From positions 1 through 45,765 of IMG/VR virus record IMGVR_UViG_3300025030_000183: a stretch of 45,765 bases of DNA; one strand, 5' to 3'. The notes under the pieces were generated by a model. It was not told the origin of the DNA. It ran no database searches and saw only the letters and a list, made by a program, of their open reading frames with translations. Positions 1,667 to 45,765 of the stretch are shown here, piece after piece. The translations under genes were made by a program, and so were the position numbers. Source of the stretch: a virus. Within the stretch, counting starts at the first letter, position 1, and each line of letters begins with the position of its first letter.

Positions 1667-1709
1667 AAAAAGCTCCTGGCGGGTGTTCTCCCGCAAAGGA
1701 AATGGGTTG

Positions 1710-2327: not shown

Positions 2328-3145
2328 TAGGCGCCTCCTTCAAGGGCAGCAAGGCGTGTTTCGAGTACTTCTATCCGCGCCATGGCCAGCTGTAGTGCGA
2401 CTTCCGCCTCCAGGCTCACGATCGAGTACTTGACGCCTTTGGAAGTCTCCCCGGTCGGCTGCTGCTCGATTACCGTCTCGCCTTCTTCGTTCACCACCTC
2501 GACGTTCATAAGGTCCTGCGTTTCCTCTACAAGCGAAGGCGAGACGAGCTCAACTTCCTGGGCGATCATGCCGAGCAGCTTCTTCTTATCGGGGTCGGCT
2601 TTGAGGTTGTAGCTGACGAACCGGTACCGCTTGAACTTTTCCCAGATGGCGGCCGGGTCGACGTCGGTGATGTTTTCCTTGTACTTGATGTCCGAAATGG
2701 CTCCGTAGGAGTTGTTGACGTTCTGTACGTTGCCGTTGCCGAGAACCAGGAGCCTGGAGGCGTTGTCTGCACAAACGAGCAGATAGGGTGCCGCACCGCC
2801 GGTGATTCCCGACATGTACACGTTGAGCCCGTAGGGATTGGTAGCGGAACTGTTCTCCACCATCAGCCCGTAGTTGCTCGGCGCGTTTTTTACCATCCTG
2901 TGCGTTGTGCCGCTTGCTGCCCCCGCCAGGAAATTGCCGGAAGCATCACACTTCGGGACCAGGTTGGCCCCGCCGCCGACGGCGACGTCAGAGGACAGTA
3001 GCCGCCTGTCCACCGCCGCACGCAGGTTCACCAGGTTCTGGGCAAATTCGACGGCGTTGAGCGGTGCGTCCTTGTTGTAATCTGCACCACTGGACTCGGC
3101 CGGAACCGATGCCGTTGCGAGCGGGGTGATTATCTTAGTGGTCAT
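2327..3145 (-). CDS. Tail fibre with C-terminal S74 intramolecular chaperone (self-cleaving)
   Basis: The protein has 272 residues. Its N-terminal half resembles short phage fibre shafts. The C-terminal part (from about residue 145) matches the peptidase S74/endosialidase chaperone domain: an SDIKYKENI motif with Ser151 and Lys156 at the catalytic +5 spacing, then GMIAQEV, a YSIVSLEAEVA segment and a terminal helix rich in Glu and Leu. In this family the domain drives trimerisation of the fibre and then cleaves itself off. The ATG is at 3145. The 5' end overlaps the small coiled-coil gene and the 3' end overlaps the next start. A fibre role is well supported by the domain; the receptor is unknown. 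Confidence 0.85.
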   Translation of the reverse strand: MTTKIITPLATASVPAESSGADYNKDAPLNAVEFAQNLVNLRAAVDRRLLSSDVAVGGGANLVPKCDASGNFLAGAASGTTHRMVKNAPSNYGLMVENSSATNPYGLNVYMSGITGGAAPYLLVCADNASRLLVLGNGNVQNVNNSYGAISDIKYKENITDVDPAAIWEKFKRYRFVSYNLKADPDKKKLLGMIAQEVELVSPSLVEETQDLMNVEVVNEEGETVIEQQPTGETSKGVKYSIVSLEAEVALQLAMARIEVLETRLAALEGGA

Positions 3146-3317
3146 GTGAGTCTCCTATGGGTTGCTGTGCCACCTTCAGTTGTTCATTCTCGGCCGTGAG
3201 CCTGTCGATCTCGGCTCGCTGCACGTTCAGCTGCTGGTTGGCGTTGAGGACGATGCGGCCAAGCTCGGCGATGCGCTCGGTGTAGTAGGTTTCGCGTTGC
3301 AGGTCTCTGAGATCCAT
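3135..3317 (-). CDS. Small coiled-coil protein between tail tip and fibre genes
   Basis: This is a 60-residue protein. It is nearly all helix, with heptad-like Leu/Ile spacing and Glu/Gln-rich stretches (residues 5-50), and a His/Asp-rich end. It overlaps the S74 fibre start by 11 bases and follows the tail-tip gene closely. It may be a fibre connector or assembly factor. No family is recognised. Confidence 0.6.
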   Translation of the reverse strand: MDLRDLQRETYYTERIAELGRIVLNANQQLNVQRAEIDRLTAENEQLKVAQQPIGDSHDH

Positions 3318-3330
3318 TACTTAGTGCCAC

Positions 3331-6300: not shown

Positions 6301-7575
6301 AAACTGGTGATAGGTGTTGACCTGGACGCCTGCGTTGTTCTGCAGATCGGGGATTTTCTTTTTGAACCGCTTCCAGACGTCCCGCAGCTTGACGGTGAAG
6401 GTGCGCTTCTCCTGGTCGGCGGTGTAGCTCTCCCATACGCCGGTGAAGTAGGGCTCGTAGTCGGCAAGGGGGAGCCCGACGAACCCGAGGTAGACGGTGA
6501 CGCTGCGCCGCTTGCCGGTGCTCTGCACCAGGTCGGAGGTGAGCGGCATCCAGGCCAGGTCGAGGGTCAGGTCGCCGACGGTCGGCTTGTCGCGGAGGGC
6601 GATCTTGCTGCTGATGTTGGAGACCTTCTGCAGGTACGGGGCCACTTCGCCGGAGCTGAGCGCGGGCTCGCCGCGGTGCGTGCCGATGTGGACTACCTGC
6701 TTGTCGCCGCCGACCACCCGGATGGAGTAGAGCTCCGGCGTGTCGTAGCCGGTGGAGACGAAGGTGATCTGGAAGCGGTAGTAGCGGTAGGGTGCTATTT
6801 CACGGCCGTCCGTGATGGTACCGAGGGATACCCACCCGTCGGTTCCGGTGGTGCTCCCCTCCGCTACGTAGATGATGGAGGACGCGCCGGTGACCATGTC
6901 GTCAATCAGCACGCGGCTGTTGACGTTGGGGACTATGCCGAGGTCGAACGCCTTGGTGGTGATCGTGCCGGTCTTGGCGCGGAATTCAACACTGAAATTG
7001 GCGTCGTCAACAGGATAAACATTGGCGGTGACACCGCCGTACGTCACCGAACCGTATCCATTGTACGCCGACAGTATGTCTGTGCCGGCAGGAACGGGTG
7101 AAGCAGCGGCGAAAAGCCCCAGCCCGAGCATCCGTTTAATCTGGGGTACCGGTGTGGTGGCTGACCACCAGACGTAACCGGACCCGTCTGTGACGGAGCC
7201 GCTCCAGCCAAGCGCGGTCTCGACTGCAGCAAGAATACCGAGGGTTGCCCGCGGGAACACGATCCGCCACAACGCCGTAATGGATTCCGCGTAACCGTCA
7301 GTCGGCGCTGAAAACCACGGCGATGAGGCCGAGTTCAGGTGCACGTCCAGATCATGCCAGGTCACCTGCGTGTGATTGTAGGTGTAGAGCTTGTTGCGCA
7401 CGCCCACTACGCCATCCTCGCGGGTAAACACGTCCAGGTTGTCAATGGTCCCCGCGTTCCAGTCGCTGGCGAGCTTCTGCTCGACGTTGATGGCTTCGAC
7501 CGACTCGCAGGCGGCGTAAAACACCGGCTGCATGGGGGTCTTTTTGGAAGCAGCTATCCAGGCGGCGCTGGGCAT
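3331..7575 (-). CDS. Tail tip / host-specificity protein (lambda J-like)
   Basis: This 1414-residue protein is the largest in the genome and lies directly downstream of the tape-measure block, as lambda J does. The N-terminal half contains hub-like segments (VSNISSKIALRDKP, LADYEPYFTGVWES, a region with repeated TV-R-E-V). A fibronectin-III-like module lies at about residues 725-815. The C-terminal third holds helical repeats of the form 'ID-A-NA-I-L-A' (about 1080-1180), followed by a VVDGTVSARMMAADVF motif typical of central fibres of J-type proteins. It should form the tail tip and contact the host receptor. Its ATG overlaps the stop of the gene before it. The family assignment is strong; the exact domain limits are estimates. 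Confidence 0.85.
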   Translation of the reverse strand: MPSAAWIAASKKTPMQPVFYAACESVEAINVEQKLASDWNAGTIDNLDVFTREDGVVGVRNKLYTYNHTQVTWHDLDVHLNSASSPWFSAPTDGYAESITALWRIVFPRATLGILAAVETALGWSGSVTDGSGYVWWSATTPVPQIKRMLGLGLFAAASPVPAGTDILSAYNGYGSVTYGGVTANVYPVDDANFSVEFRAKTGTITTKAFDLGIVPNVNSRVLIDDMVTGASSIIYVAEGSTTGTDGWVSLGTITDGREIAPYRYYRFQITFVSTGYDTPELYSIRVVGGDKQVVHIGTHRGEPALSSGEVAPYLQKVSNISSKIALRDKPTVGDLTLDLAWMPLTSDLVQSTGKRRSVTVYLGFVGLPLADYEPYFTGVWESYTADQEKRTFTVKLRDVWKRFKKKIPDLQNNAGVQVNTYHQFGEAPSGTGDPLNIIDAMVQVADMAKAPDRFIDRAAFSALKAAHYTGAEWNVYRVLTDQKDSDDLLKELAVTAGIFLVPAPNGKLTPYHYDTVAAAVPTVTLDAAQIKFSNLVPDMAETVTRHNIFFNLIEDSQGRRSGGTPSDYSHVYTTVGSTNSVIAERDREEVITGEWFDNWGLAAGVANGVPNPLTRLADRLESWYTPIATVNGKQVATTKVTVRAENVPLRYYSEVTPGKTVYVDNLRLPCPTSSWGGFSDQVKFLVLGWVVDQKNYTLTLDLFQITSLEYNQNPTWSTYSRLDLFPPVTGLSLAATVIFGADGISRPGLAVSFVPPAGYTAGAYEVWVSAGGGTPTVYTAIPAAQAGSTVYLTIPVTAGADYTVSVVTIAGSGARPAFQDAPAATATAGSVAEISSQTLQMLNTEATSEMIDDYFAGKTSLISILDTRNMLFELGVVGPGVAATYTEALSQAASEMNLNKNLLQSLNSMVSGLITSEYSDTTTYTVGQFVKAADGNTYQCILETTGHAPPNATYWLLTSDLVSMVNEIQQDLDAATATWTSTAQQLTADLRALDGAGTGRVTIAETEIEQNAANITLTGTAITGPLAFVAGAVVEPGVQVEGVADVTGLEVQVSRTRIDLDSANAAITLGASRLDSLAGRMSAAEIEIDGANASILLQAGEIDAMDGRVSTAEVAIDGANAAIALRATSAALSAEVDVLSDMIGLKLDAGPISAGLAISWTDETHTRSNITAYADTFRFAKPDGTGPVSIVLIGEVDGVEQVGINGNLVVDGTVSARMMAADVFVGGNFSGETFTGNTFQTAESGERFVVSATDNLAHFWGDRGDGTIEEIATIGAATSGGDRRGVYAQVSYGPKGTNPNPFQYGAVEGKNTAVRTGATAVLGTSDSMPAVGGFSSTGDGVLACSTSGYSINAYNGRKWGAGQADNKAPLRLQPSDSSSAPTHLADIGALWVTSAGILYINKGAYTWEKVGAQ

Positions 7576-24304: not shown

Positions 24305-25221
24305 GTGCGGCGTACGCCATCAGCCCGCTCTATGGGACCGTCGTACGGAAAAGGATCCTTCACACCGCCCCCTCTAATCGGCACGATGAACGGTGCCGGG
24401 TTGTCAATGACGTACCGCTGTATGCCGCGCGCGATCCGGCGCAGGGTATTGTCGGCGAGGGGCTTCTTGCGGGTGAAAATCGACGGGCAAGGGATGCTCC
24501 AGTCGATGCACTCGGCGGCGGTCCGCCAGGGGAGGAGCTGCCCGCCCTTCACGCCATCCTTCCCGGGGTCTCCGTGCGTCGGTTCCGGCCAAACGATAGC
24601 CTCCCCATCACAGCGCGCCACCAGAAAGAGACGCTTACGGATCGTCGGTGCCCCGTAATCGCAGGCGCGCATGGTCCGCCACTCCACCGCGTAGCCGAGT
24701 CGCTGCAGCTCGCGCACGAAGGTGCGAAAGGTTCGGCCCGATCTCTTCTTGCAGGGGTGCATGTTGCCGTTGATTCGGACCAGCGGTCCCCAGGTGGTAA
24801 ACTCCTCCACGTTCTCCAGGAAGATCACTCTGGGGCGGACCGTCGCCGCCCAGCGCTTACCGACCCACGCGAGTCCGCGCACGCGCTTGGAGACCGGCTT
24901 GCTCCCCTTGGCCTTGGAGAAGTGGGTACAGTCGGGCGACATCCAGAGGTGGCCAACCGGGCGGCCGGCGCACACTTCCTGCGGCACCACGTCGAAAACG
25001 CTCTCACAGTAGTGCTTGGTGTGCGGATGGTTGATCTGGTGCATCAGTACCGCCTTCTTGTTGTGGTTCACGGCGATGTCGGGTGAGCGGCCAAGGGCCC
25101 ATTCGATCCCGGTGGAGGCACCGCCCCCGCCAGCAAACAGGTCCACGATGAGCTCCCCGTTGAAATCAAGACCCGGTTGCGGGTCGACGCGGTAGGGACC
25201 GGAATAAGTGCGCCGCCTCAT
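24301..25221 (-). CDS. DNA (cytosine-5) methyltransferase
   Basis: The protein has 306 residues from the ATG at 25221. Motif I is at about 27-35 (DLFAGGGGA), a catalytic Cys98 sits in SPDCTHFS (a variant of PCQ) and motif VI is ENV at about 136-138. RMRACDYGAPTIRKRLF-like motif VIII follows at about 190-205. The C-terminal motifs IX/X are weak and the protein is short for the family. It would methylate phage DNA at C5 of cytosine, probably against host restriction. The ATG overlaps the previous stop (ATGA), so it is coupled to the retroelement operon. Confidence 0.88.
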   Translation of the reverse strand: MRRRTYSGPYRVDPQPGLDFNGELIVDLFAGGGGASTGIEWALGRSPDIAVNHNKKAVLMHQINHPHTKHYCESVFDVVPQEVCAGRPVGHLWMSPDCTHFSKAKGSKPVSKRVRGLAWVGKRWAATVRPRVIFLENVEEFTTWGPLVRINGNMHPCKKRSGRTFRTFVRELQRLGYAVEWRTMRACDYGAPTIRKRLFLVARCDGEAIVWPEPTHGDPGKDGVKGGQLLPWRTAAECIDWSIPCPSIFTRKKPLADNTLRRIARGIQRYVIDNPAPFIVPIRGGGVKDPFPYDGPIERADGVRRT

Positions 25222-25580
25222 GCCGCTTTTCTCCCAACCGGTTCCAGGCCGCGCTGGATCACCATCATGGTCCTGTTCCAGCAACCAACCACGTAGTCGA
25301 CCATGTCATCATCAAGCGGCTTTCCGTGACCGGCGGCGAGATTGTAGATGGCATCCTCAACAGCCTTGATCTTGCGGGCGTTTCGCGCGTGCTCGGGCAG
25401 TTTCTTGCGGAGAATCATCAGCTGGGTCATCCCGATACTGACGGCCCAGGTGAGAATCTCGGCATCGTCGAACTCTTCAGCCTGGAGAGCATTGGTCGCC
25501 GCGGGCTGAAACTCTCTGTAGGTGACTTTCCCTCCATGGGAAATTATCTTTTCGTAAAGCGTGATGCTGCTTCCGCTCAT
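25218..25580 (-). CDS. Hypothetical protein coupled to the reverse transcriptase
   Basis: This is a 120-residue helical protein (MSGSSITLYEKIISHGG ... DDDMVDYVVGCWNRTMMVIQRG). It starts inside the reverse transcriptase stop (ATGA) and ends inside the methyltransferase start, so it is translated in one chain with both. No family is recognised. It could be an extra retroelement factor or just a phage gene. The coupling is a direct observation. Confidence 0.6.
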   Translation of the reverse strand: MSGSSITLYEKIISHGGKVTYREFQPAATNALQAEEFDDAEILTWAVSIGMTQLMILRKKLPEHARNARKIKAVEDAIYNLAAGHGKPLDDDMVDYVVGCWNRTMMVIQRGLEPVGRKAA

Positions 25581-26749
25581 GCGTGACTCCTTTTCCTGAA
25601 AACCTTGGTGAACCCTCCGTCGACGCAGTGACCTTTGCGAAGCGCTATTCGCGCCACCCTGGCGCGGGCCTTGTGGCTGTGGTCAGATTGGCGCAGCAGG
25701 CCAAGGTAGCTGTTAGCGCTTCTCATCAGATCTTCGCCGCTCTTGGCGGAGACGGCCGCCAGGGCATTGTCATAAGTGGTGCGCCGCAGCACCCTCCGCC
25801 AGGGCTTAATGATCTGCCCAACGAAGTCCACGCCACGCTCGATGGGCTGAAGGATAGTCTTGCGCGGGTTCAGCGCCAGGCCGAGTCGCTCGGTCACGAA
25901 GGCACCGATCTCCGCTGCAGCCTGGTTCAACCATTCATGCGACTCGTGCAGCAACACCATGTCATCGACGTAGCGGACGTAATGCCGGGCGCCGATACGG
26001 TGTTTCACGTGCTGGTCGATCGGGTTCATGTAGACGTTGGCAAAGAACTGGCTGCTCAGGTTGCCAATGGGGAGTCCCAGGTGGCCCGGCTGGTTGAACA
26101 GGCTTTTGTGCGGCGGGATAAGGTCCAGCAGTTTCGCCGCACCCTTGATATGCACGTTCTCGCGCGGGTCATGGAGCAGGATGGTCTCGGCCAGCCACAG
26201 GGTCCAGGGCTCGGCGATCTTTAGCGCCAGCAGGCCGTGCAGGATGTTCTTGTTGATACTGACGAAGAAATTGGCCATGTCCAGCTTCAGATAGAAAGCG
26301 CGCTTCGACCAGTTCTGGGTGATGCTGCGCACCTTGTGCTCCAGCCGGGTGGCGCCGTAGAGCGTGCCGCGTCCCGGGATGCAGGCACAACTGTCGGCAA
26401 TGAAGGAACGGTGGAAGCGATCGGCGATGCGGTTGTACAGCAGGTGGTGCACCACCCGATCGCGGAAGTCCGCCGCCCAAACCTCCCAGGGCTTCGGCCT
26501 GGTGACGACAAAGCAAATGGAAGTTCCCGGACGGTAGCTCCCGTCGATCAGCTCGTAGTAGAGGGACATGATATTGCGCTCGAGGTCGGCCTCGAAACGC
26601 AGCGCGTTGATGGTATTGCGCTTGCGCCTACGGCAGTCGTAGTAGGCGCACAGCAGCTCGTTCACCGACAAATCGGCATCGTTGTAATCTGCGGACCGCC
26701 CTGACTCCCGCACCGTTGTTCTTATTGTTGTTGTTCTGGTTGCCGTCAT
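25577..26749 (-). CDS. Reverse transcriptase of a diversity-generating retroelement
   Basis: The protein has up to 390 residues. RT motifs run in order: the ADFRDRVVHHLL block (about 93-104), the first catalytic Asp158 in YLKLDMANFF, the diagnostic LPIGNLSSQ (about 226-234) with SQ where other RTs carry SP, and catalytic YVDD at 260-263. The short length, the absence of maturase or protease domains and the SQ signature define the DGR class. The start is uncertain. The ATG at 26749 lies inside the template repeat and has no ribosome site; family-like sequence begins near residue 27, so GTG 26713 or TTG 26671 is possible. It would copy the template RNA with errors at adenines. Confidence 0.95.
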   Translation of the reverse strand: MTATRTTTIRTTVRESGRSADYNDADLSVNELLCAYYDCRRRKRNTINALRFEADLERNIMSLYYELIDGSYRPGTSICFVVTRPKPWEVWAADFRDRVVHHLLYNRIADRFHRSFIADSCACIPGRGTLYGATRLEHKVRSITQNWSKRAFYLKLDMANFFVSINKNILHGLLALKIAEPWTLWLAETILLHDPRENVHIKGAAKLLDLIPPHKSLFNQPGHLGLPIGNLSSQFFANVYMNPIDQHVKHRIGARHYVRYVDDMVLLHESHEWLNQAAAEIGAFVTERLGLALNPRKTILQPIERGVDFVGQIIKPWRRVLRRTTYDNALAAVSAKSGEDLMRSANSYLGLLRQSDHSHKARARVARIALRKGHCVDGGFTKVFRKRSHA

Positions 26750-26788
26750 TGAAGTTCACGTTCCATGCGTTGTTGGAGTAAGAGGCGT
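26686..26788 (-). repeat. DGR template repeat (TR)
   Basis: This 103-bp segment lies between avd and the reverse transcriptase. Read leftward it would encode ASYS..., GAGVRAVRR like the target ends, but with 12 Asn codons (AAY) where the targets vary. It aligns without gaps to VR1 and VR2. Of 14 differences to VR1 all are at template A; of 17 to VR2, 16 are at template A. Confidence 0.96.
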
Positions 26789-26795
26789 AAAGTCG

Positions 26796-26957
26796 TGCTG
26801 TTCACGTCGCAAGGCAGAAGGCTGAGCCGATCCGTCCTGAAACTGCGCGCGACCTTGCGGGACCTTGCCCGCTGGTTTCGCTGTTGGCGCCTTACCGTGG
26901 GGACTATCCCCAGGGGCATAACCAGATTAATTCGCACGGGCATAGCCGCCGTAACGG
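26796..26957 (-). ncRNA. Structured spacer upstream of the template repeat (part of the DGR RNA)
   Basis: The 160 bases between avd and TR hold no convincing gene. A 9-bp perfect stem with a 6-base loop (26940-26963) overlaps the avd stop, and a 6-bp stem with a 3-base loop lies at 26898-26912. In known DGRs, RNA next to TR is needed for cDNA priming and Avd/RT binding. The role here is inferred. Confidence 0.5.
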
Positions 26958-27311
26958 CTATGCAGCAGGCGACGATGCGTACTTGCGCCACGCGGTTGAC
27001 TGTCTGCCGATCTGGTCAGTCAGCTCAACCGTTTGCGCGAACTGCCCGGTGCTGATCAGCTTCATGTCGCTGGACAGCCGAAGCATCAGCATCACCACCT
27101 GGAGACGTTCCTGCAGCTCCTCCAGGTGGCGCCGCTTGTCTTTGGAGCAGTTCGCGCGGTAGATCAGGACCGTCAGCTCAACACATTCTTCGCGCACCTT
27201 GTTGCCTAAGGACTGCTTGAAGTCCCGTGGCATATCCTTGGTGATGCGGGTGACCACCTGCAGTAGGTTATAGGTGACGCGATAGATGGGAAGAGTTGAA
27301 GCGATGGCCAC
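26958..27311 (-). CDS. avd: DGR accessory variability determinant (Avd)
   Basis: The 117-residue GTG start follows GAGGTAG. The protein is helical and very basic. Its pattern LPIYRVTYNLLQVVTRITKDMPRDFKQSLG, then REECVELTVLIYRAN and LEELQERLQVVMLMLRLSSD, is that of the Avd/23S-intervening-sequence four-helix bundle. Avd forms a pentamer that binds the reverse transcriptase and the template RNA and is essential for mutagenic retrohoming. The order target-avd-TR-RT is the same as in Bordetella phage BPP-1. Confidence 0.92.
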   Translation of the reverse strand: MAIASTLPIYRVTYNLLQVVTRITKDMPRDFKQSLGNKVREECVELTVLIYRANCSKDKRRHLEELQERLQVVMLMLRLSSDMKLISTGQFAQTVELTDQIGRQSTAWRKYASSPAA

Positions 27312-27335
27312 GTGCTACCTCAAATAGATGAATGG

Positions 27336-27884
27336 TTAAATTTTAAATCTGCGGACCGCCCTGACTCCCGCACCGAAGCTCTTACTGCCGTTGTTCTGGA
27401 AGCCGCCATTGAAGCTCACGCCCCACGCGTAGTTGGAGTAAGAGGCGTGCTCTGTGCTGCTCCAGTACCAGCGATTCTCGAAGGCCTCGGCGGCGCCGGC
27501 GCGGAAGAGTTCCGGGGTGCCCTTCTTGTTCGGTCCGAGCGCCAGCCAGATCCGCATCAGCTCGTCGCGGCTCGGCAGGTACCAATCGTCATGGTCGCCA
27601 ATCCGCAGCGAGCGGCAGAACTCGACGGCGGGGTGATTCTTGTCTTTGACCTTGTCGCTGTTGGCCAGCCCGTCGTCTTCACTGTCGGTGCCGTCGACAA
27701 TACCAAGGCTTTTCTTCTTGTACTCGAGGCCGAGCTTCTCCCCGGTGGCTTTGGGCGAAACCACCAAAGCGTAGCGCTGGCCATCGAGGATAATCTCGCC
27801 GGCATAGAAGCCGCCGACAAGCGGCTGCCCGATGGCGGGGATCTCGATCGGGCCTATCATTTCTGCTGCCTGTGTATGATTCAT
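27336..27884 (-). CDS. DGR target protein 1 (DUF1566/C-type-lectin-like, variable)
   Basis: The protein has 182 residues; the ATG at 27884 follows AGGAGG. The N-terminal part carries GGFYAGEIILDGQRYAL. The C-terminal half is a lectin-like fold of the formylglycine-enzyme/DUF1566 type: DWYLPSRDEL (about 100-109), WYWSSTEH (about 139-146) and GAGVRAVRRF at the end. Residues 151-170 are the diversified loop and correspond to template Asn codons. There is no signal peptide. The protein should display a hypervariable binding surface. Its ligand and location (virion, cytosol or cell surface) are unknown. Confidence 0.93.
   Translation of the reverse strand: MNHTQAAEMIGPIEIPAIGQPLVGGFYAGEIILDGQRYALVVSPKATGEKLGLEYKKKSLGIVDGTDSEDDGLANSDKVKDKNHPAVEFCRSLRIGDHDDWYLPSRDELMRIWLALGPNKKGTPELFRAGAAEAFENRWYWSSTEHASYSNYAWGVSFNGGFQNNGSKSFGAGVRAVRRFKI
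27346..27448 (-). repeat. DGR variable repeat 1 (VR1)
   Basis: The 103 bp end target gene 1. Gap-free alignment to TR shows 14 differences, all at template adenines and mostly in AAY codons that became Tyr, Gly, Ser or Phe. The 3' flank shares TTTAAAATTTAACCATT with VR2, which TR lacks. Confidence 0.96.
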
Positions 27885-27912
27885 GGTTTTCCTCCTGAAA
27901 ATTGATAAATGG

Positions 27913-28533
27913 TTAAATTTTAAATCTGCGGCCCGCCCTGACTCCCGCACCGTAGCTCTTACCGCTGCCGTCCTGGTAGCCGCCACTGAAGTTCACGCTC
28001 CACGCGTGGAAGGAGTAAGAGGCGTGCTCCGTGCTGCTCCAGTACCAGCGATTCTCGAAGGCCTCGGCGGCGCCGGCGCGGAAGAGTTCCGGGGTGCCCT
28101 TCTTGTTCGGTCCGAGGTTGCGGTACATCATCGCGAGCTCGTCGCGGGACGGCAGGTACCAGTCGTTATGCTCGCCGATCTGCAAGGAACGGCAGAAGTC
28201 CGTCGCGGGATGGTTACCGTCGGCGAGGGTCTCGCTGTTCAGTGCGCCATCGTCATCACTGGTCGCGCCGTCGGCATCGCGCCAGTCTTTCTGCTTGTAC
28301 TCCAGCTCCAGTTTCTCCCCCAGAGCCTTCGGTGCGGCGACCAGGGCGTAGTTGACGCCGTCGATGGTCATCTCGCCCGCAAAAAATCCGCCGCCGAGCG
28401 GAGAGCCCAACTGCGCGTAGGGCTCGGCCAGGTAGATCGGGGTGCCGATCGGCAGAGTGGTGTGCGGCGGCGTCTCGATGATGTTTTGCCCGTCGGGCTG
28501 GTTGTTGTTTATTACGGTGCCGATCAGCTTCAT
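27913..28533 (-). CDS. DGR target protein 2 (DUF1566/C-type-lectin-like, variable)
   Basis: The protein has 206 residues; the ATG at 28533 follows GGAGGA. The N-terminal 45 residues (MKLIGTVINNNQ, TPIYLAEPYAQLG) are longer than in target 1. It then runs parallel: GGGFFAGEMTIDGVNYAL, DWYLPSRDEL (about 124-133), WYWSSTEH (about 163-170), diversified residues 175-194 and GAGVRAGRRF. The 96 bp just before the variable repeat match target 1 with one mismatch while the N-terminal halves differ more. There is no signal peptide. It is a second display scaffold served by the same template. Confidence 0.93.
   Translation of the reverse strand: MKLIGTVINNNQPDGQNIIETPPHTTLPIGTPIYLAEPYAQLGSPLGGGFFAGEMTIDGVNYALVAAPKALGEKLELEYKQKDWRDADGATSDDDGALNSETLADGNHPATDFCRSLQIGEHNDWYLPSRDELAMMYRNLGPNKKGTPELFRAGAAEAFENRWYWSSTEHASYSFHAWSVNFSGGYQDGSGKSYGAGVRAGRRFKI
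27923..28025 (-). repeat. DGR variable repeat 2 (VR2)
   Basis: The 103 bp end target gene 2. Sixteen differences from TR are at template adenines. One more (T to G, Val to Gly at residue 201) is not, and it lies in the GC-rich 3' part that marks the mutagenic-homing site. Confidence 0.95.
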
Positions 28534-28652
28534 AGTTGTTCCTCCGTTTAAAAAAGGCGGGGGAGAGTTCGGCTCACGCCGTCGAGGTCCGTTGCGTCCC
28601 TCTCCTGGTCTACTATCCGCCAGCGTTCCCAACTGGCCCGCCAAAAATGGCG

Positions 28653-30083
28653 CTACTCTTCTTCGCTTTCCCGACAGTTTCCGCAGCAGACACAATCGCC
28701 GCCTTCCATCTTGCAGCGGGCTATGACCGGCGGGCGCTCCTCGTAAATCTTCCAGGCCTTTTTGTATGCCGCCTCCAGAACTTGAAGCTCCCAAGTAAGG
28801 CCTTGTTCGTCTTCTGCCGTAAAGAAAGCTTCGATACCATCTTCCTTGGCCTTGATGAACTGGATCACCTGGGGACGATTCTGCTGTAGCCATTGCCAAC
28901 CTTCGGACTTGAACTCGGCTCCAATGCGCCCCTGGCTGTGCTGCACCAGATGATGAGCGCGATCGCTGTTGAATGTCACTTTAGCTTTCTCCTTTTTGCC
29001 GCCGGAGATGTGGAAGATAGGTGGCAGGTTTTCTTTTATCCATTCCCTGATGCTGCACCCGGCCTTGTAGGCATCACCGGGATCTTTTCCAACAGGGACC
29101 GGCCACCTCTCGGCCTGGGGGAAGTGTTCTCTCCACCAGAGCCAGCTGCTGCCGCCCGGATTTTTGTTGTTGCCCGCCTCGAGGTCGTAGTCCAGTGCGA
29201 CAGATATGTGCAGGGCTGCATCGAGCAGGGCATAGGCCTTATCGGTGGGTTTGGCGGAATTATTGCCCATGGCCATGGCGCCGATGTTGAGCCCTTCGAT
29301 TTCCTGCGCCACCAGGATGGAATCCAGTTCCGCCTCTACGATGACAAACGCTTTCGCCCCAGGTGCTATGACATAGGTGTCTGAGCCGGACCCCGGTACA
29401 ACATAGTAGGGCGTGCTAAAGTCGGGTGTCCGGCGCTCGTTGGGGATCCTGATCCTGACGCGGCGAAGGGCGCCGTCGACGTAGTTGGGAATGACAAGGC
29501 CAATCGGGAGCCACAGCTTTTTCTTCTTGTTGTCCTTGAGGATGGTTTCCAGCCCCCAGGCTTCCCGGGCGCGGTAAGCATCCTTGTCTTTCTCTCCGGC
29601 GTTCCAGCCAAGGCGCGCAGCCACAGCCGACTCTTTTTTGATACCGCGGCCGGCAAGGTAGTGCAGCGGCGAGCCGGGTTCTTCTCCTCTGGCCAGCAGT
29701 TGCTGATGGCAATTCTCGACAAACTTCTCGGCGTGCTCTCTCCAGAGGTCGGCTGGAGCCGCGGGGATAGATGGTCGCCAGTTGTCGCCTGCTGGGCGCT
29801 TAACTTGAGGGGTTTTGCCCTCCTGTTGTTCGGGAAGGTCGCGGCCTACCGCCTTGCACGCTTCAGGAAACGTCATGCCTTCGACATCGATAAGCCACTG
29901 GATCAAGTCCCCGCCCTTATTGCAGCCGCGGCACCACCAACCACCAGTCCCATTCTCTTCCGGCCAGATATGAAAACGATCGTTTCCACCGCACATCGGA
30001 CAAGGACCGTGATATTCACCACCCTTTCTGGAGGATACCTTCTTGTAATGGCCGTGTTTTTCAGCGGATTCGAGTACGTTCAC
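28653..30083 (-). CDS. DNA primase with CHC2 zinc finger and TOPRIM domain
   Basis: The protein has 476 residues. The N-terminal zinc-binding site is Cys28/Cys31/Cys51/Cys54 (CPMCGG ... CRGC). TOPRIM follows: FVIVEAELDS with Glu250 and the LDYD acidic pair at 298-300. The C-terminus adds another Cys cluster (CKMEGGDCVCCGNC), perhaps a second metal site. It makes RNA primers for phage DNA replication, working with the SF3 helicase on the other side of the iteron region. It is separated from the DGR by about 120 bases. Confidence 0.87.
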   Translation of the reverse strand: MNVLESAEKHGHYKKVSSRKGGEYHGPCPMCGGNDRFHIWPEENGTGGWWCRGCNKGGDLIQWLIDVEGMTFPEACKAVGRDLPEQQEGKTPQVKRPAGDNWRPSIPAAPADLWREHAEKFVENCHQQLLARGEEPGSPLHYLAGRGIKKESAVAARLGWNAGEKDKDAYRAREAWGLETILKDNKKKKLWLPIGLVIPNYVDGALRRVRIRIPNERRTPDFSTPYYVVPGSGSDTYVIAPGAKAFVIVEAELDSILVAQEIEGLNIGAMAMGNNSAKPTDKAYALLDAALHISVALDYDLEAGNNKNPGGSSWLWWREHFPQAERWPVPVGKDPGDAYKAGCSIREWIKENLPPIFHISGGKKEKAKVTFNSDRAHHLVQHSQGRIGAEFKSEGWQWLQQNRPQVIQFIKAKEDGIEAFFTAEDEQGLTWELQVLEAAYKKAWKIYEERPPVIARCKMEGGDCVCCGNCRESEEE

Positions 30084-38613: not shown

Positions 38614-38620
38614 CTTGTCT

Positions 38621-40111
38621 ATGATTGCCAGCATCACATGCGCCATCTACATAAGAAAATCCCGCGAGGACAAGGACAAGCCGTCCCACCGGCTCACGGT
38701 GCAGCGCGAGCAGCTGCCGGCGCACGCGGCCTCCCAGGGATGGGCCTACTCCGTCTATGACGACGGCCACGCTTCGGCGGCCCGAGGCAAGGTCGACAGC
38801 CTGAAGGAGCGCTCCCGCCTCGAGGCGGACATTCGCGCCGGCAAGATCGGCATCATCCTCACCATCGAGCTCTCCCGGCTCTCCCGGGACGACTCCCTGC
38901 AGGACTACGTCGCCTGGCTGCACCTCTGCGCCGAGCACCGCGTGAAGCTCGCCACCATGTCCAGAACACTGGACCCCAGCCAGCACTCCGACTGGATGCT
39001 GCTCCTCATGGAGGGCGGCTTCTCCTCGGTCGAGATGCGTGTCCTGCAGTCCCGCATGGCAGAGGGGCGAGCACAGGCCCTCCAGACCGGCAAATTCCTC
39101 GGCGGACAGCTGCCACCACCATATATATACGGCAGGGCAAAAAACGCCCCCGTTGTGGATCCTGAAGCCCTGGAGAGGATGCGGCAGCTTTGGCATCTCG
39201 CCGAGACAAAAAGCACCCGACAGGTGGCGGAAGAATTGAAGGTGCCGCTGATCACGATCCGGCGCGCGATCTCGGACCAGAGACTCCTCTTCTGCCAGGC
39301 CAAGAGACCAGGCCCGACCGGCACGCTGATCGATTGCGAGTGGGAACCCTGCTTGACCGAGGAGCAGGCCGAGCGGATCAGGGCCAACCGCTCCGGCAGA
39401 CTCTCCTCGGGCAGCAGGCGAATTTACGGCGGGCTGCTCAGCAACCTTGGACTGTTCCAGTGCGGCTACTGCGGCCGCAGCATCCGAGCGTGGACCAACA
39501 GCCGCCGCCGGAAGGACGGCAGCCGCCTTGACTACTACGGATGCAAGGCCAACGAGTTGAAGCGAACCTGCCCGGACTCCCGGATGATCTCCCAGGAAGC
39601 GATAAACGAGCGCGTCATCACCAACGTCCTCGGGACATTGTCCGATACCGCCATGCTGAGGGAAAGCTGGTTGGCCAGCCAGAAGCAGGACGGGCAAGAA
39701 GAACAGCTGACGGACCTGGAGCGGCAGGGACGGAAACTCCAGGAAAAGAAACAGCGCCTGGTGGCCGCAGTCGTGGAGGGGGTGCTGAACTTCACCGATG
39801 CGAAGGCGCAGCGCGAAGAGCTGGACGCCGCGATCGCCGCGACAGAACAGGCCAGACAAAGCATCCTGAGATGCCAGAGAGAAGAGCCGGACTGGGAAGC
39901 GCTCGCGCTTATGCGTGACCAGTTTGGAGACCTCGAAGAGGCGGAGCGCAGACAGATGATCACCCTGGTCGTCAAGAACATCAGGATGTTTGCCAGCTAC
40001 CTGATCATCGAATACCTTCTCCCCAGGGGCCCGGCCGGAGAGATGACCTCGCGCGTGCACCTACCCCCGCCGGCCAAAACAGGCCCCAAGGTCTACAAAG
40101 ACAAAACCTAG
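38621..40111 (+). CDS. Large serine recombinase (integrase)
   Basis: The protein has 496 residues from the ATG at 38621. The N-terminal catalytic domain has the nucleophile Ser14 (YIRKSREDKD) and the partner region LSRLSRDDS, then an 'SVEMRVLQSRMAEGRAQAL' helix E end. The recombinase domain is followed by a zinc ribbon (FQCGYCGRSI ... YYGCKANELKRTC) and a long coiled coil (about 360-430, LEKRQGRK-like). This is the full layout of large serine integrases that act without host factors for integration. It integrates the phage DNA at an attB; a candidate attP lies 200 bases downstream. Confidence 0.92.
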   Translation: MIASITCAIYIRKSREDKDKPSHRLTVQREQLPAHAASQGWAYSVYDDGHASAARGKVDSLKERSRLEADIRAGKIGIILTIELSRLSRDDSLQDYVAWLHLCAEHRVKLATMSRTLDPSQHSDWMLLLMEGGFSSVEMRVLQSRMAEGRAQALQTGKFLGGQLPPPYIYGRAKNAPVVDPEALERMRQLWHLAETKSTRQVAEELKVPLITIRRAISDQRLLFCQAKRPGPTGTLIDCEWEPCLTEEQAERIRANRSGRLSSGSRRIYGGLLSNLGLFQCGYCGRSIRAWTNSRRRKDGSRLDYYGCKANELKRTCPDSRMISQEAINERVITNVLGTLSDTAMLRESWLASQKQDGQEEQLTDLERQGRKLQEKKQRLVAAVVEGVLNFTDAKAQREELDAAIAATEQARQSILRCQREEPDWEALALMRDQFGDLEEAERRQMITLVVKNIRMFASYLIIEYLLPRGPAGEMTSRVHLPPPAKTGPKVYKDKT

Positions 40112-40176
40112 GCAATTCAACAACCTGCCTGCCCTGTGAGCCTCAAGGTAAAAGGCCAGTGTACCCCAGAAACAAA

Positions 40177-40222
40177 AATAGCGGCGCAGTCTCAAAGACT
40201 TGCGCCGCTATTGTCATTTTTT
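40177..40222. terminator. Bidirectional rho-independent terminator
   Basis: A 16-bp stem with one bulge (AATAGCGGCGCA and its complement) is followed by a T-run rightward (40216-40222). It is also followed by a T-run on the minus strand (from AAAAATA before the stem). It lies between the convergent integrase and lysis genes. Confidence 0.75.
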
Positions 40223-40257
40223 AGGAACAATTGCTCTACCAACTGAGCTAAGATGGC
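40222..40257 (-). other. 5' tRNA-like fragment (acceptor and D arm only)
   Basis: On the minus strand GCCATCT, TA and a complete D arm (GCTC, AGTTGGTA, GAGC) follow tRNA rules. The rest does not fold as a tRNA: the anticodon position lacks the conserved U33 and the T arm is absent. It may be a remnant of a host tRNA or part of an attachment core. Confidence 0.6.
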
Positions 40258-40311
40258 GTGACAATTATCTGGTAACTTGCTGAAAGATAAATGACAATCG
40301 CTGTTTTGCGG

Positions 40312-40351
40312 CTACAAACGGACCTCTGGAAGCCGCATAAGTCCGTTGTAG
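40312..40351. other. Candidate attP (imperfect inverted repeat)
   Basis: The arms CTACAAACGGAC and GTCCGTTGTAG are complementary with one bulged base, 16 bases apart. Direct repeats GACCTCTG lie at 40321-40328 and 40351-40358. Serine integrase attP sites are about 50-bp imperfect inverted repeats near the integrase gene, so this is a good candidate, but it is not proved. Confidence 0.4.
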
Positions 40352-40389
40352 ACCTCTGAACTTTTACCCGAAAACCCCGGCTCCGTCAA

Positions 40390-40593
40390 TCACATTATGG
40401 GCTTAGCTCGCGTTCGGCGGTTTGATGGCAGGCGTTTTTTAATGACGCCAGCGACGTCGATGCCGAAGAAACCACCGACCGCTCCTGCGGCCGCTGCGCC
40501 GGCCAGTACCTTCCAGTCAATCACCCCGAATCCTGCCGGGATGGTGGCCGTCGCTACTGCGCCAGCGAGGGCGCTGCCGAGGCGCTTTTGCAT
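40390..40593 (-). CDS. Small membrane protein, candidate holin
   Basis: A 67-residue protein with two Ala/Gly-rich hydrophobic segments (about 8-22 and 28-50) and a basic C-terminus (KKRLPSNRRTRAK). This is class-II holin-like. It is the last lysis-module gene and overlaps the preceding gene by 40 bases. Confidence 0.6.
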   Translation of the reverse strand: MQKRLGSALAGAVATATIPAGFGVIDWKVLAGAAAAGAVGGFFGIDVAGVIKKRLPSNRRTRAKPIM

Positions 40594-41039
40594 ATTCTCT
40601 CCTCCAGTTCTGCCTTCAGAATCTTGTGCAGTGTGTTAGGGCTCACCCGGGCGGGTGTGTAGCCGGTGAGGTAGCCTATCTGCTGCAAAGCGGCGACGCA
40701 GATCTCGCTACAAAACCAGCGGCGGGCGGACTGCCAACCGATGGGGATGGGGAGGAAAGAGAAGCCGATGCCGACTTTGTCGTACTCGCACCCCTCTTCG
40801 CCGGCGCAAAACGCCAGCACCTCCTGCTCCTGCTCTTTGGTGCACGGGACATCAAGGAGGTCCCACTCATCAAGGGGGAGCGTCCATCCCTTCCAGCGAG
40901 TCCCGTTGTCAGCCTCGTCGCTGGAAAAGGTGCGACCGTCGCTGAATACGAGCTCGGAGTGGCTGTACTTCCCGAAGGTCCACAGGCGGATGATGTGGGC
41001 ATAGATACTGCTAGGTTTTTTCCTGAACGCGAGCTTCAT
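40554..41039 (-). CDS. Papain-like (permuted NlpC/P60, YiiX-type) hydrolase
   Basis: The protein has 161 residues. His27 in YSHSEL comes before Cys110 in RRWFCSE, the order found in circularly permuted NlpC/P60 (YiiX-like) enzymes. It could be an amidase or peptidase acting on the cell wall or on a host protein. It lies in the lysis cassette. The reaction is not proved. Confidence 0.7.
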   Translation of the reverse strand: MKLAFRKKPSSIYAHIIRLWTFGKYSHSELVFSDGRTFSSDEADNGTRWKGWTLPLDEWDLLDVPCTKEQEQEVLAFCAGEEGCEYDKVGIGFSFLPIPIGWQSARRWFCSEICVAALQQIGYLTGYTPARVSPNTLHKILKAELEERICKSASAAPSLAQ

Positions 41040-41166
41040 TGGCTCCTGACTCCTCTTGTGAATTCTCCTGCCGACAGTTGCGGCACTCTTCCGGATTGCG
41101 CCTGGCGCACTCCTGCACGTTGTTGGTCGGGCACATGCCCATGGTGTAGCTGCTGTATCGGCTCAC
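41011..41166 (-). CDS. Small Cys-rich protein in the lysis cassette
   Basis: A 51-residue frame with a GTG start at 41166 after GGAGGTG. Four Cys residues (MCPTN, QECARR, EECRNC) suggest metal binding. The 3' end overlaps the hydrolase start. There is no lipobox, so it is not an Rz1-type spanin. Confidence 0.5.
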   Translation of the reverse strand: MSRYSSYTMGMCPTNNVQECARRNPEECRNCRQENSQEESGANEARVQEKT

Positions 41167-41180
41167 GATCACCTCCGACC

Positions 41181-41738
41181 TCATGCAGCCTCTCGCAGCA
41201 TGCCCTCGAAGGCCCGGGCGTAGCCCGCGATCATCTCCGCGCAGTCCAGACCGTTGATGATTTTCCTGGCGTTCAGGTAGTCACACCTCTCGGCATTGAT
41301 GTACTTGGGGAGGCCGACGCCCGTGAAGCTGCCGTGGCGCATCCCATAGGACATGATCTTATAGGCCAGCGCTGGGTCCAAAGCGAGATCCGGTTCCCGC
41401 GCCAGGTCCACCTTGAAGACGCCCCCCATGGTTTCATAGTTCCCGCGCCAGGTGAGCTGAACGTAGCCCCGGCCGTAGTAGACCTGACCTGTCTCAGGGT
41501 CGCGGCGCCCGTACTTCATGTTTTTGCCGCGCCCACCCTCCCGCACCGGTAACCAGGTGTCGCCGCACTCACGCTTGACCGTGGCCAGCATGTAGGCGGC
41601 CCACCGCAGGTCTATGATGCGCGTATCTGCCTCCAAGGAGGCGAGGATAGAGTTCAGGCCATCTACCTGCGGCTGCGTGAGGGGGCCGAAGTGCTTGCGG
41701 TAGCGCTCATAGAAAAACGCTTTGTCTATCGTGAACAT
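41181..41738 (-). CDS. Endolysin, GH19 (chitinase-like lysozyme) type
   Basis: The protein has 185 residues. The catalytic Glu is in VKRECGDTW (about 54-62) and the substrate cleft motif YGRGYVQLTWRGNY at about 89-102 is diagnostic of the GH19-like lysozyme fold. It cleaves peptidoglycan glycan strands. There is no signal peptide, so holin is needed. The ATG at 41738 follows AAAGGAGGG. Confidence 0.85.
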   Translation of the reverse strand: MFTIDKAFFYERYRKHFGPLTQPQVDGLNSILASLEADTRIIDLRWAAYMLATVKRECGDTWLPVREGGRGKNMKYGRRDPETGQVYYGRGYVQLTWRGNYETMGGVFKVDLAREPDLALDPALAYKIMSYGMRHGSFTGVGLPKYINAERCDYLNARKIINGLDCAEMIAGYARAFEGMLREAA

Positions 41739-41911
41739 CTAAAACCCTCCTTTACGGTCGCGGCTTCCGGAACGTGTCTCCTCACACACCCCCATATTTC
41801 GAGACTTAACGGCTCCCCATAGGTCCAGCTCGGCATCGGTTGCCATGTCCATGATCCCCAGCCTAGGAACTGGTCGCCTGGGCGGACTATTTCGCCAGAG
41901 AGGAGGAGCAT
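41726..41911 (-). CDS. Small phage protein of the 'GDxFLxWxxWxPxPxxxxG' type
   Basis: The 61-residue protein starts with ATG within the preceding stop (TAATG). It contains GDQFLGWGSWTWQPMPSWTYGEPLS and a C-terminal VRRHVPE, a pattern recurrent among small phage proteins. It overlaps the endolysin start at its end. The function is unknown. Confidence 0.6.
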   Translation of the reverse strand: MLLLSGEIVRPGDQFLGWGSWTWQPMPSWTYGEPLSLEIWGCVRRHVPEAATVKEGFRCSR

Positions 41912-42720
41912 TACGGCATCGGTACGTAGATCGTGTCCGCGCTGAACGTAGTCCCCGCCGACGCTGTGCCAACCACTCGGAACGGGTGACTCCCGGCAGA
42001 TACCGTGTAGGTTTTCTGTATGTTGGTGAACGTTTCCCCTGCCGCGCATATGAGCGCCCGGACCTCAGCCCCATCAACATAAATTTTTACGTCTGAAGTT
42101 CCGCCACCTGGAGGGGCGGAGCAGGAGGTGTTAACAGATATGGTTCCGGCGGACATCATGCCGGTTTGAGTCCCGGTATCTGTCATGCCCGAGTCGGAGA
42201 TTGACGTGATGCCGTTGATTGCTCCCTGGGTTGTCCAGAGAGGTTGCCCGGTGCCGGTGTAGCTGATGTCGTCAATACTGAGTTTTGCAACGGCAGCAGC
42301 ACTTCCGTGGATAGTCAGAGTATGGGTGCCTGCGGTCAGTGCTTGGGAGAACTCAGTATAGGTACTGAGAGACCCAGGCATACAAGAAACAGGAGTCTCG
42401 CTGTCTACATAAAAAGTACAGGTCGATGACAGGTCCGTAGCAGCCTTAACCCATAAACTGAAAGTTCCACTACCGGTCACTACTGTTTTAGACCAGTCAC
42501 CTCCACCGCCGTTGAGAAAATATGCGTAGCCGGTGGGTGAGTTTGCGTCCACACCTTCACTCACAGCACCACCGGTATGATTCCAGCTTTGCCAATCACC
42601 ACTAAGAAATGTTGAAGTGATAGTTGGATCTTGCTTCCCGAAAAACGCCAGCGCCATCTCAGCCCCTGCCCATGCCGGTGAGGACATGAGCAGGAGAATA
42701 AGGGTCAGTAAAAGTTTCAT
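41911..42720 (-). CDS. Secreted or virion accessory beta-protein
   Basis: The protein has 269 residues from the ATG at 42720 (GAGGTAACC upstream); an earlier TTG adds five residues. A signal peptide (KLLLTLILLLMSSPAWA) is followed by beta-rich Thr/Ser sequence with two carbohydrate-binding-like repeats (about 95-145 and 200-265; DVKIYVDGAEV, SHPFRVVGTAS). It lies directly after the fibre gene. It may be a fibre-associated or secreted protein. Confidence 0.65.
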   Translation of the reverse strand: MKLLLTLILLLMSSPAWAGAEMALAFFGKQDPTITSTFLSGDWQSWNHTGGAVSEGVDANSPTGYAYFLNGGGGDWSKTVVTGSGTFSLWVKAATDLSSTCTFYVDSETPVSCMPGSLSTYTEFSQALTAGTHTLTIHGSAAAVAKLSIDDISYTGTGQPLWTTQGAINGITSISDSGMTDTGTQTGMMSAGTISVNTSCSAPPGGGTSDVKIYVDGAEVRALICAAGETFTNIQKTYTVSAGSHPFRVVGTASAGTTFSADTIYVPMP

Positions 42721-42724
42721 TCGG

Positions 42725-45700
42725 TTACCTCGCAAAGCAGTCAGCCGCCGTGGTTGACTTGGTATGAATCAGATAGAAACTGTGGCTGCTGGCGGTCGTA
42801 ACCTGCGTCGGCTCGGTCGTAGTGCCGTCAGCGTTTCTCCAGGTGCAGATGAGCCCCGAAGAGGGCCAGGTGGACTGCCGACCTCCCGTAGCATCCTGAA
42901 TTACCTCTAGGAGATGCCACTGCCCCGCTACAGGGTTGGTAAAGGCGAACGTAGTGCTGCCCGTGAGCGTCACCGATGGTGAGTCACCAAGGGACAGGTC
43001 AATCGTCGTGGTCGCGCCGTAGGTGGTCGCGGCGGGGATGGTGCCGGTGAAGGTGGTCGCCGTGGCATTGCCGGTCACACTTACTGGATTGGCGATTGTC
43101 AGCAGCCCCTTGGTTGCGTGGCTGGTGCTCTCAATGGTTGCCGTGCCGCCGGATGCTGCGCCGAGAGAGAGCGTTTTCTGGCCAAGGCGAGCCTCGTTGC
43201 TGTCCTCGTCCAAGATGTGTATGTAATCGCCCTCTACGTTCCAGAGTTTTAGGCGATCAGTCCCGCCCGTGGCTGAGCCGTTGGCTGGGATGCTGATTGC
43301 GCCAGCAGTTTCTATCTTGAGACGCTCTGTCAATGCACTACTGCCCCCGACTTTCCCCAATTCCACAATGAAAGCTGTCGGCTGGTCGGCGTCGCTAAAG
43401 TTGCCTTCGGGGTTGAATTTGAATGATCCTGACGTTTTCTCCCCTGTTGCCCCGTAGCCATACGCAAGAAACGTGAGCGTTGCGTCGTTTGCAAGGGTTG
43501 CAGTGGGTGACCCCTTAGCCCCCCTAGCGTTAAGTGAACGGTATGAAGGGAACCCGCCCACTGTGCCACCATAGTTGACCATTTTCATGTTCATGAACTT
43601 GGCCGAAGTGGACGACGTGTTTTCAATAGTCAGATATGTGCCGCTCGTATCAGACGCGGAAAGCGTTGCAGCGGTGAATGTAGGCGAACTGGTCGTAGTC
43701 AACCCTGCCACCGCCGCCTGGTTCAAGGTAGCAAGCGATTTATCGCCCCTAAGATATTGCGCCGTAGTTCCCGCCGTGATGGTTGGTTCAAAACCAGTAT
43801 GACCGGCAGCGGCGTAACTGAGATTAGACAGCGTGGCATGGTCGGTGGTACCGCCAGGGTTCGTGATGGAAAACGAACCGTCGCCGTTGTCAGTCACGGA
43901 GCCGTTGCTGAATTTCAGCGTGGAAGGTGTACCGGTCGGGGAGCCGTCCTCCTCCCTTACGGTCATGACAGTTCCGGTCTGCACGTCTGCGCTCAAAATG
44001 CCGCCTGTGATAGAGAGCCTGTCGCCCACCTTCACGCCACCAAGTGTTCCAGCAGAGGCAGTGGGAAGGGAGTAAACCGTATCACCATCACCTTGCAGCG
44101 CCCACACACCGCCTGCTTCGCAGCCGTAAATCCGCTTTCCCGTTGTCGCGTTGGTGTCCATTGCGATCTGCCCAGGCTGACAGGGGACCGGGAGCGTGTC
44201 AGCCGCAAGCGTCGGGTAGGCATAGGTAGTCAGGATGTTGGCGAATGTATTGGTCCCGTCCTGCTTCACGTCAATAGCTTCGCCGTTGGTGTAAACTGGC
44301 GATGCAACAGCAATCTGCTGAAGCCAGGAGCCGTCAGCCGCCGACATGAGCGGGGTTGATGCTGTCTCCGCAGCAAAGTCATTGCCGGTCAGAACCATGC
44401 TTCGCAGCGACTCTTCGCCTATGTTGATGATGCCGGTGCCGGTCGCCGTGTTGTTCCAGAGCCGTCCACGATTGTTGGTAATCACAGCCCGGCCGTTACG
44501 AATCGTGAACAGTGCGAATCCTGCGCCGTCCAGTTCGTTGTTGTCGATGACGACGTTCTCAGCATCGCCGTGAACGTCGACCAATCCCGAGTAAAGGTAT
44601 TTGGTGTTCCCCGCCTGAACGAATGTCTCGCCAAATCGGGAAGGGGTCTGGCTCAGCGAGTTCCCGCGAATCGTGGTAGTATTGCTGGCAAACTCACGGA
44701 CAGATACCGTAATGCCGTGTTTGCAGTCATCAATGGTGTTGTGCAGCACCTCATTATTGTGGCCCGAAATGCCGATGCCGTCCCCGTACCGGCCCCCGTC
44801 AGTTGAGCTTTTACTGAGGTAGTCGGATATGTCGTTTGCCTCGATTTTGTTACCGATGCCGAGTGTCTGGACGCCAATTGCGGCGTACTGGCTGCCGGTT
44901 GCGATGTTGTCATGGACCCACGCACCGCGCCCCTGAACAACGATGCCGTTGGTGTTCTCTGTCGAGCCTGTGTTGTCGATCTGAAAACCCTCGACTTCGA
45001 CGTTATCAGTGCGGGTGTAAACCACGACATCGGTCGCCGTAAAATCTACGACGGGGAGAAAGTCAATTGTTGCAGTGTTCCCGCTCACGCTGACTACATT
45101 GGTCAAAACCCCACGCTTATACCCCGGCACGTACTCGGTTCCAGCGGTCAGCCGGATCATGTCGCCAGCAGTAACAGTCACTCCGCCAGGAACTGTGAAC
45201 GTGCTACTCCCCGCTGTGACCGCTATGGATTGGCCGGTATAACTCGCCGCCCACCCACCAATCGACAGCGTGTTGCCGTCAGTCACGGCACTTTTGAGCA
45301 CCGCGCCGTTGCCGTGCAGTTTCAACGCAGTCGGATAACCTACCGTCAGCCCTGTAGGAAGGTTGTAGGTTTTGGACCCGTTGGCGTAAACATCCATATG
45401 GGCGCAGGCTTCGAGTAGCGCCCGGAGGGGTACCTTGTCATCGGTGGTTCCGTCCCCCGCAGCATCCACCCAATCAACGTAGGCGTCGGTGATCCTGTCC
45501 CCAAATACAAGGTTGGGGTACTCGAAATTGTCCAGCCACATCTGCCCCGGCGCGTCAAGCGGCCCGTTGATGGTGAGCACTCCTGCCGTGTGGTCGATGA
45601 TCGCCCCCGGCTGCACCCGTAACGTGATGTTGACAGGTACGGTGACATGGTTGCTCATGGGGTACGTGCCGGGAGTGACCACCAGCGTTTTGACCGCGCT

Positions 45701-45765
45701 GCCTATATCCGTGATCGCCTGATTGATGGCGACATGGGACAGCACCCCACCGTTGTAGTCAGAGG
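42725..45765 (-). CDS. Tail fibre/spike, C-terminal two-thirds (5' end off the right edge)
   Basis: The frame is open to the right edge, so the true start is missing. The first part (MLSHVAINQAITDIGSAVKT...) is the same as 696-570 of the left fibre gene and joins it in frame. A right-handed beta-helix region (about residues 85-470 of this part: HGNGAVL, GNKIEANDISDY, NTIDDCKHGI, NNELDGAGFALF) is followed by a phage-fibre region with CEAGGVWALQGDG, YLRGDKSLATL and SDADQPTAFIVELG. The C-terminus is Thr/Ser-rich and ends CFAR. It should bind or degrade a surface polysaccharide. Confidence 0.8.
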   Translation of the reverse strand, partial: SDYNGGVLSHVAINQAITDIGSAVKTLVVTPGTYPMSNHVTVPVNITLRVQPGAIIDHTAGVLTINGPLDAPGQMWLDNFEYPNLVFGDRITDAYVDWVDAAGDGTTDDKVPLRALLEACAHMDVYANGSKTYNLPTGLTVGYPTALKLHGNGAVLKSAVTDGNTLSIGGWAASYTGQSIAVTAGSSTFTVPGGVTVTAGDMIRLTAGTEYVPGYKRGVLTNVVSVSGNTATIDFLPVVDFTATDVVVYTRTDNVEVEGFQIDNTGSTENTNGIVVQGRGAWVHDNIATGSQYAAIGVQTLGIGNKIEANDISDYLSKSSTDGGRYGDGIGISGHNNEVLHNTIDDCKHGITVSVREFASNTTTIRGNSLSQTPSRFGETFVQAGNTKYLYSGLVDVHGDAENVVIDNNELDGAGFALFTIRNGRAVITNNRGRLWNNTATGTGIINIGEESLRSMVLTGNDFAAETASTPLMSAADGSWLQQIAVASPVYTNGEAIDVKQDGTNTFANILTTYAYPTLAADTLPVPCQPGQIAMDTNATTGKRIYGCEAGGVWALQGDGDTVYSLPTASAGTLGGVKVGDRLSITGGILSADVQTGTVMTVREEDGSPTGTPSTLKFSNGSVTDNGDGSFSITNPGGTTDHATLSNLSYAAAGHTGFEPTITAGTTAQYLRGDKSLATLNQAAVAGLTTTSSPTFTAATLSASDTSGTYLTIENTSSTSAKFMNMKMVNYGGTVGGFPSYRSLNARGAKGSPTATLANDATLTFLAYGYGATGEKTSGSFKFNPEGNFSDADQPTAFIVELGKVGGSSALTERLKIETAGAISIPANGSATGGTDRLKLWNVEGDYIHILDEDSNEARLGQKTLSLGAASGGTATIESTSHATKGLLTIANPVSVTGNATATTFTGTIPAATTYGATTTIDLSLGDSPSVTLTGSTTFAFTNPVAGQWHLLEVIQDATGGRQSTWPSSGLICTWRNADGTTTEPTQVTTASSHSFYLIHTKSTTAADCFAR
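45639..45765. repeat. 127-base exact copy of 570-696 at the window end
   Basis: Every base from 45639 to the last base equals 570-696; the base before differs. Further back the two versions are clearly related but diverged. A copy running exactly to the end of the window suggests an assembly overlap of one k-mer and a circular genome. Confidence 0.9.

Follow-up and report, generated by a model that had tools for sequence, protein, structure and literature searches.

What does it mean that a viral genome record ends on an exact copy of a site lying a few hundred bases from its other end? The window analyzed here, which is the whole 45,765-nt stretch of a virus record classed as linear (that is, without end repeats found), raises this question. 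In a sequence comparison over the whole window, its last 127 bases (45639-45765) were identical to positions 570-696 at 127 of 127 positions, as stated in the preliminary description, with zero extension to the left. The overlap terminates at the last base of the record, and the flanking sequences on the other side diverge immediately. Given the divergence adjoining the block, an exact 127-nt match would arise with a probability of about 1e-8 if the local rate is applied and 5e-18 with the overall rate; the match is not due to chance.

JGI metagenome assemblies use k-mers of up to 127 (PMC7065516; PMC12687941), and where a metaSPAdes contig is broken at a fork, the ends overlap by exactly the maximal k-mer length (maxK); such forks are due to repeats, regions in common, or variation within a population, as described for COBRA (PMC10914622). 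Here, the overlap likewise equals the largest k and lies at a fork. Unlike the COBRA overlaps (PMC10914622), however, one end of the contig is matched inside that contig itself, which gives a loop with a tail. Since the match is to an internal site and not to the other end, an end-to-end repeat test misses the circle. When a simple k = 127 de Bruijn graph was built from the circle (697-45765) and window positions 1-1696 (or 1-900), two edges were obtained, 1-696 and 570-45765, which when joined gave the window base for base. The earlier remark that 127 is a usual maximal assembly k-mer is borne out, and the record was presumably produced by a pipeline with k up to 127.

In the explanation that we consider highly probable, the map of this phage would be a circle of 45,069 bp (697-45765), and the record would be a path through the k = 127 graph. 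A second branch of 569 bases, belonging to another allele of the tail fibre gene in the same sample, would enter at the 127-mer 570-696. The assembler would enter along this branch, go once round the circle, and halt on meeting the same vertex again, which would make the last 127 bases equal to 570-696. The terminal copy, 45639-45765, would then mark the vertex of the graph where the assembly path came back to itself and closed the record, and the internal copy, 570-696, would be the fork joining the two alleles. Accordingly worded, the overlap would be the footprint of the assembler closing a circular map onto itself. The 45,069-bp circular phage suggested earlier is supported as a circular map, with physical closure presumed; "circular" refers to the map, as a linear, circularly permuted or terminally redundant virion genome would look identical. 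Most likely, the record, though classed as linear, is the complete circular map of a phage.

A truly linear genome, with a right end that happens to repeat 570-696, would account for the same graph, and the window treated as a linear molecule did yield an identical one. However, the repeat would then have to be entered by the physical end to a depth of exactly one assembler k-mer, and two truncated fibre genes would be left, one at each end. We regard this as extremely improbable. The viral collection was searched for exact patterns of the fork and the left end and gave no match, which is not evidence of rarity because near-identical records may have been left out of that collection.

As a control, nine other viral records were examined for end matches with a 31-mer test, a sample too small to give a rate of loop-with-tail contigs. 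Eight had no end match. In the remaining record, 3300044712_001727 (G007), both ends match internal sites over exactly 127 nt (1-127, 38674-38800, 39110-39236, and 39234-39360), and these matches fall in the part of the record that carries its paralogous retroelement target genes. G007, for which a circular map of about 39.1 kb is probable, supports the k = 127 signature, yet repeats within one genome can also cause such ends.

This last point bears on a different origin of the overlap, namely, one genome larger than the circle and carrying two fibre genes, tandem or dispersed, with an identical 5' part at which the contig was broken. Exact 127-nt ends do arise from paralogues, as in G007, and the left and right ends of the window both lie inside fibre open frames. 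However, no second full copy was present in the record, where positions 1-1200 otherwise match only the end at 45096-45765. Moreover, if read pairs had resolved the passage from 569 through the block to 697, the path from 45638 should also pass the block instead of stopping exactly there, and one such gene was found per fibre relative in the DNA examined. Two fibre genes in a single genome are thus improbable in our judgment. It is even harder to credit that one lineage keeps a second fibre gene or a stored cassette outside the circle, with two fibre versions per genome.

The gene at the join lies on the minus strand. Joining the record at the block restores a single open frame, as had been predicted, which starts with an ATG at 1666 and stays open throughout its 1337 codons (1336 aa plus stop). 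The fibre 5' part (697-1666) comprises a signal-like N terminus, collagen repeats, and a linker, and it is common to both alleles at least beside the fork. The 3' part inside the circle (allele 2, 42725-45638), where the frame is open up to the contig end, comprises a probable beta-helix, tailspike-like part followed by further domains. That the frame is open says little for the join by itself, since the shared block sets the frame in any case. Stronger support comes from uninterrupted homologues in other contigs. Contig 3300025030_000404 (G001) aligns to joined residues 82-751 in one piece with 57% identity, and in contig 3300025030_000061 (G005) one gene of 1426 aa is collinear with joined residues 288-1329 (31% identity). 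As the fork corresponds to residues 324-366, both homologues cross it, and these two viral contigs independently support the fibre architecture across the join. When the viral collection was searched with the three-sequence fibre alignment, only G001 was recovered again.

The left 569 bases had been described as a diverged second version of the fibre, and this was confirmed. Positions 1-569 on the minus strand (allele 1, truncated, equivalent to residues 366-556) differ from 45070-45638 at 153 of 569 positions, without gaps (73% identity). Allele 1 is coding DNA in the same frame, and the differences are distributed over the three codon positions as 37/18/98, mostly at the third. The synonymous divergence (dS) between the alleles is 0.76 beside the block and rises to about 2.7 further away, and dN/dS is about 0.07 in the diverged part. 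With the same frame, third-position-biased changes, and low dN/dS, allele 1 is, as judged from its sequence, a functional diverged allele under purifying selection and not noise. Its 190 residues span only the first part of the 3' region.

Within the gene, identity gives way abruptly to strong synonymous divergence. Third-position differences between the alleles amount to 0/41 in the shared block, compared with 15/46 just beyond it (Fisher p 2e-5 versus the block) and 98/190 beyond it overall (p 1e-11 versus the block). G001, as a third relative, differs from both alleles at 20/41 third positions in the block and is only about 80% identical there. Taken with the strong divergence beyond, this pattern indicates that the identity edge reflects recent homologous recombination and more than the presence of two strains. 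Since a fork at k = 127 requires 127 identical bases, it was the assembler that selected the block, whose identity thus overstates the known length of the exchanged stretch; nevertheless, 127 nt of identity between lineages so diverged still needs an exchange. Homology to other backbones starts just upstream of the block (joined residue 288 for G005 and about window position 743 for G001), which places the exchange point at a module boundary. Thus, of the earlier proposal of two related phages, the second allele stands, but two phages are not simply what is seen: with its recently exchanged 5' part, the second allele is better described as recombinant.

The sample would accordingly have held at least two versions of one tail fibre gene. 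Beside the fork, these would have in common a 5' part made up of the linker and the collagen-like stalk, whereas their 3' parts, with a probable beta-helix and receptor or polysaccharide binding, have diverged; homologous recombination near the stalk/helix boundary would have generated them. Allele 1 would reside on a closely related phage. A contig of a sister phage, 3300025030_000532, is about 80% identical to the window over much of 17.5 kb and excludes the fibre; its recovery from metagenome 3300025030 means that this phage has diverged relatives. Among bacterial genomes, a search with the terminase found no relative.

Alternatively, the left branch could derive from an unrelated phage or prophage that shares the fibre module only, so that 1-569 would be a chimeric addition. 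The module does move between backbones: the distal part occurs in G001 and G005 with a different N-terminal part, and the DNA-level similarity of G001 to the window is restricted to the fibre. However, perfect identity with this phage over at least 127 nt requires the exchange to be recent, and G001 falls well short of it in the block. An unrelated donor is a possibility to be taken seriously, though an unlikely one, and it would modify the main explanation without contradicting it.

A switchable fibre had also been suggested. Within one phage lineage, the 3' part could be rewritten by a segment that inverts or by a diversity-generating retroelement, and the phage does encode candidate machinery for both. 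A large serine recombinase gene lies at 38615-40111, and a complete diversity-generating retroelement at 25577-28899 (25.6-28.9 kb) comprises a reverse transcriptase (25577-26749), a bAvd-like gene (26958-27311), a template (about 26667-26788), and two variable repeats (about 27327-27448 and 27904-28025), located in two tandem Lcl_C-domain genes and differing from the template in an adenine-biased manner. However, neither the retroelement nor the recombinase shows signs of acting on this fibre, in which respect the phage is unlike known retroelement or invertible-cassette systems. The alternative 3' part is absent elsewhere in the circle, no inverted or second copy of the 3' part was found in the record, and 40000-45765 and 1-3500 showed no convincing inverted repeats as flanks. 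An invertible fibre cassette, with an inverted second 3' part between inverted repeats, was thus rejected. The recombinase resembles phage integrases (E 8e-54) far more than invertases (E 2e-12). A retroelement origin of the fibre alleles was likewise rejected: the template matches 27.3-28.0 kb instead, and the differences between the alleles are not adenine-directed but involve all bases over the whole stretch, mostly at third positions, unlike the adenine-biased changes at 27.3-28.0 kb. We consider a switchable fibre highly improbable, and this part of the preliminary description was not upheld.

Apart from the fibre, the integrase-type recombinase suggests a temperate phage. Related retroelement cassettes were observed in eight other viral contigs. 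In the sister phage 3300025030_000532, about 1 kb lies opposite about 4.2 kb of the window that includes the retroelement (25201-29451), and from this difference in length the cassette seems to be a mobile insertion.

The function of the fibre was assessed from its domains. The 5' part matched the collagen family PF01391 (E 6e-14) and tail fibre PHROGs. The 3' part resembled Klebsiella phage proteins at 25-29% identity, some of them annotated as tail spike or tail fibre, and its sequence matches to tail spikes were weak. A low-confidence structure model of the 3' part had a mean pLDDT of 50, too weak to establish the fold, and its best matches included beta-helix tailspikes and lyases with low TM-scores. 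Profile searches of solved structures and Pfam gave nothing useful. These matches and the model suggest that the 3' part is likely to bind a receptor or polysaccharide. Among the tail genes, a 1414-aa gene at 3331-7575 matched neither PHROGs nor Pfam, and searches of the phage and viral collections found no relative at the sensitivity applied.

In general, the preliminary reading was largely right, with the refinement that the second allele is recombinant and meets the circular map of the phage at an assembly fork. Rather than a linear fragment, the record should be regarded as a circular map, probably complete, to which 569 bp of another allele are attached as a tail. Further complete genomes could be obtained by a simple scan for loop-with-tail contigs, which would also point to internal repeats or sites that vary in the population.

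Mosaic tail fibres and tailspikes swap their distal modules by homologous recombination. Tailocin fibres in Pectobacterium are reportedly a recent example (PMC13195805). The present fibre has the same features, namely, a shared proximal part, a diverged distal part, a sharp edge of identity, and a distal module found on other backbones; unlike described cases, it is known here only from one truncated metagenome branch. The variation is ordinary phage fibre mosaicism, of a kind already well known, and the diverged 3' part would be the part of the fibre that sets the host range of this phage.
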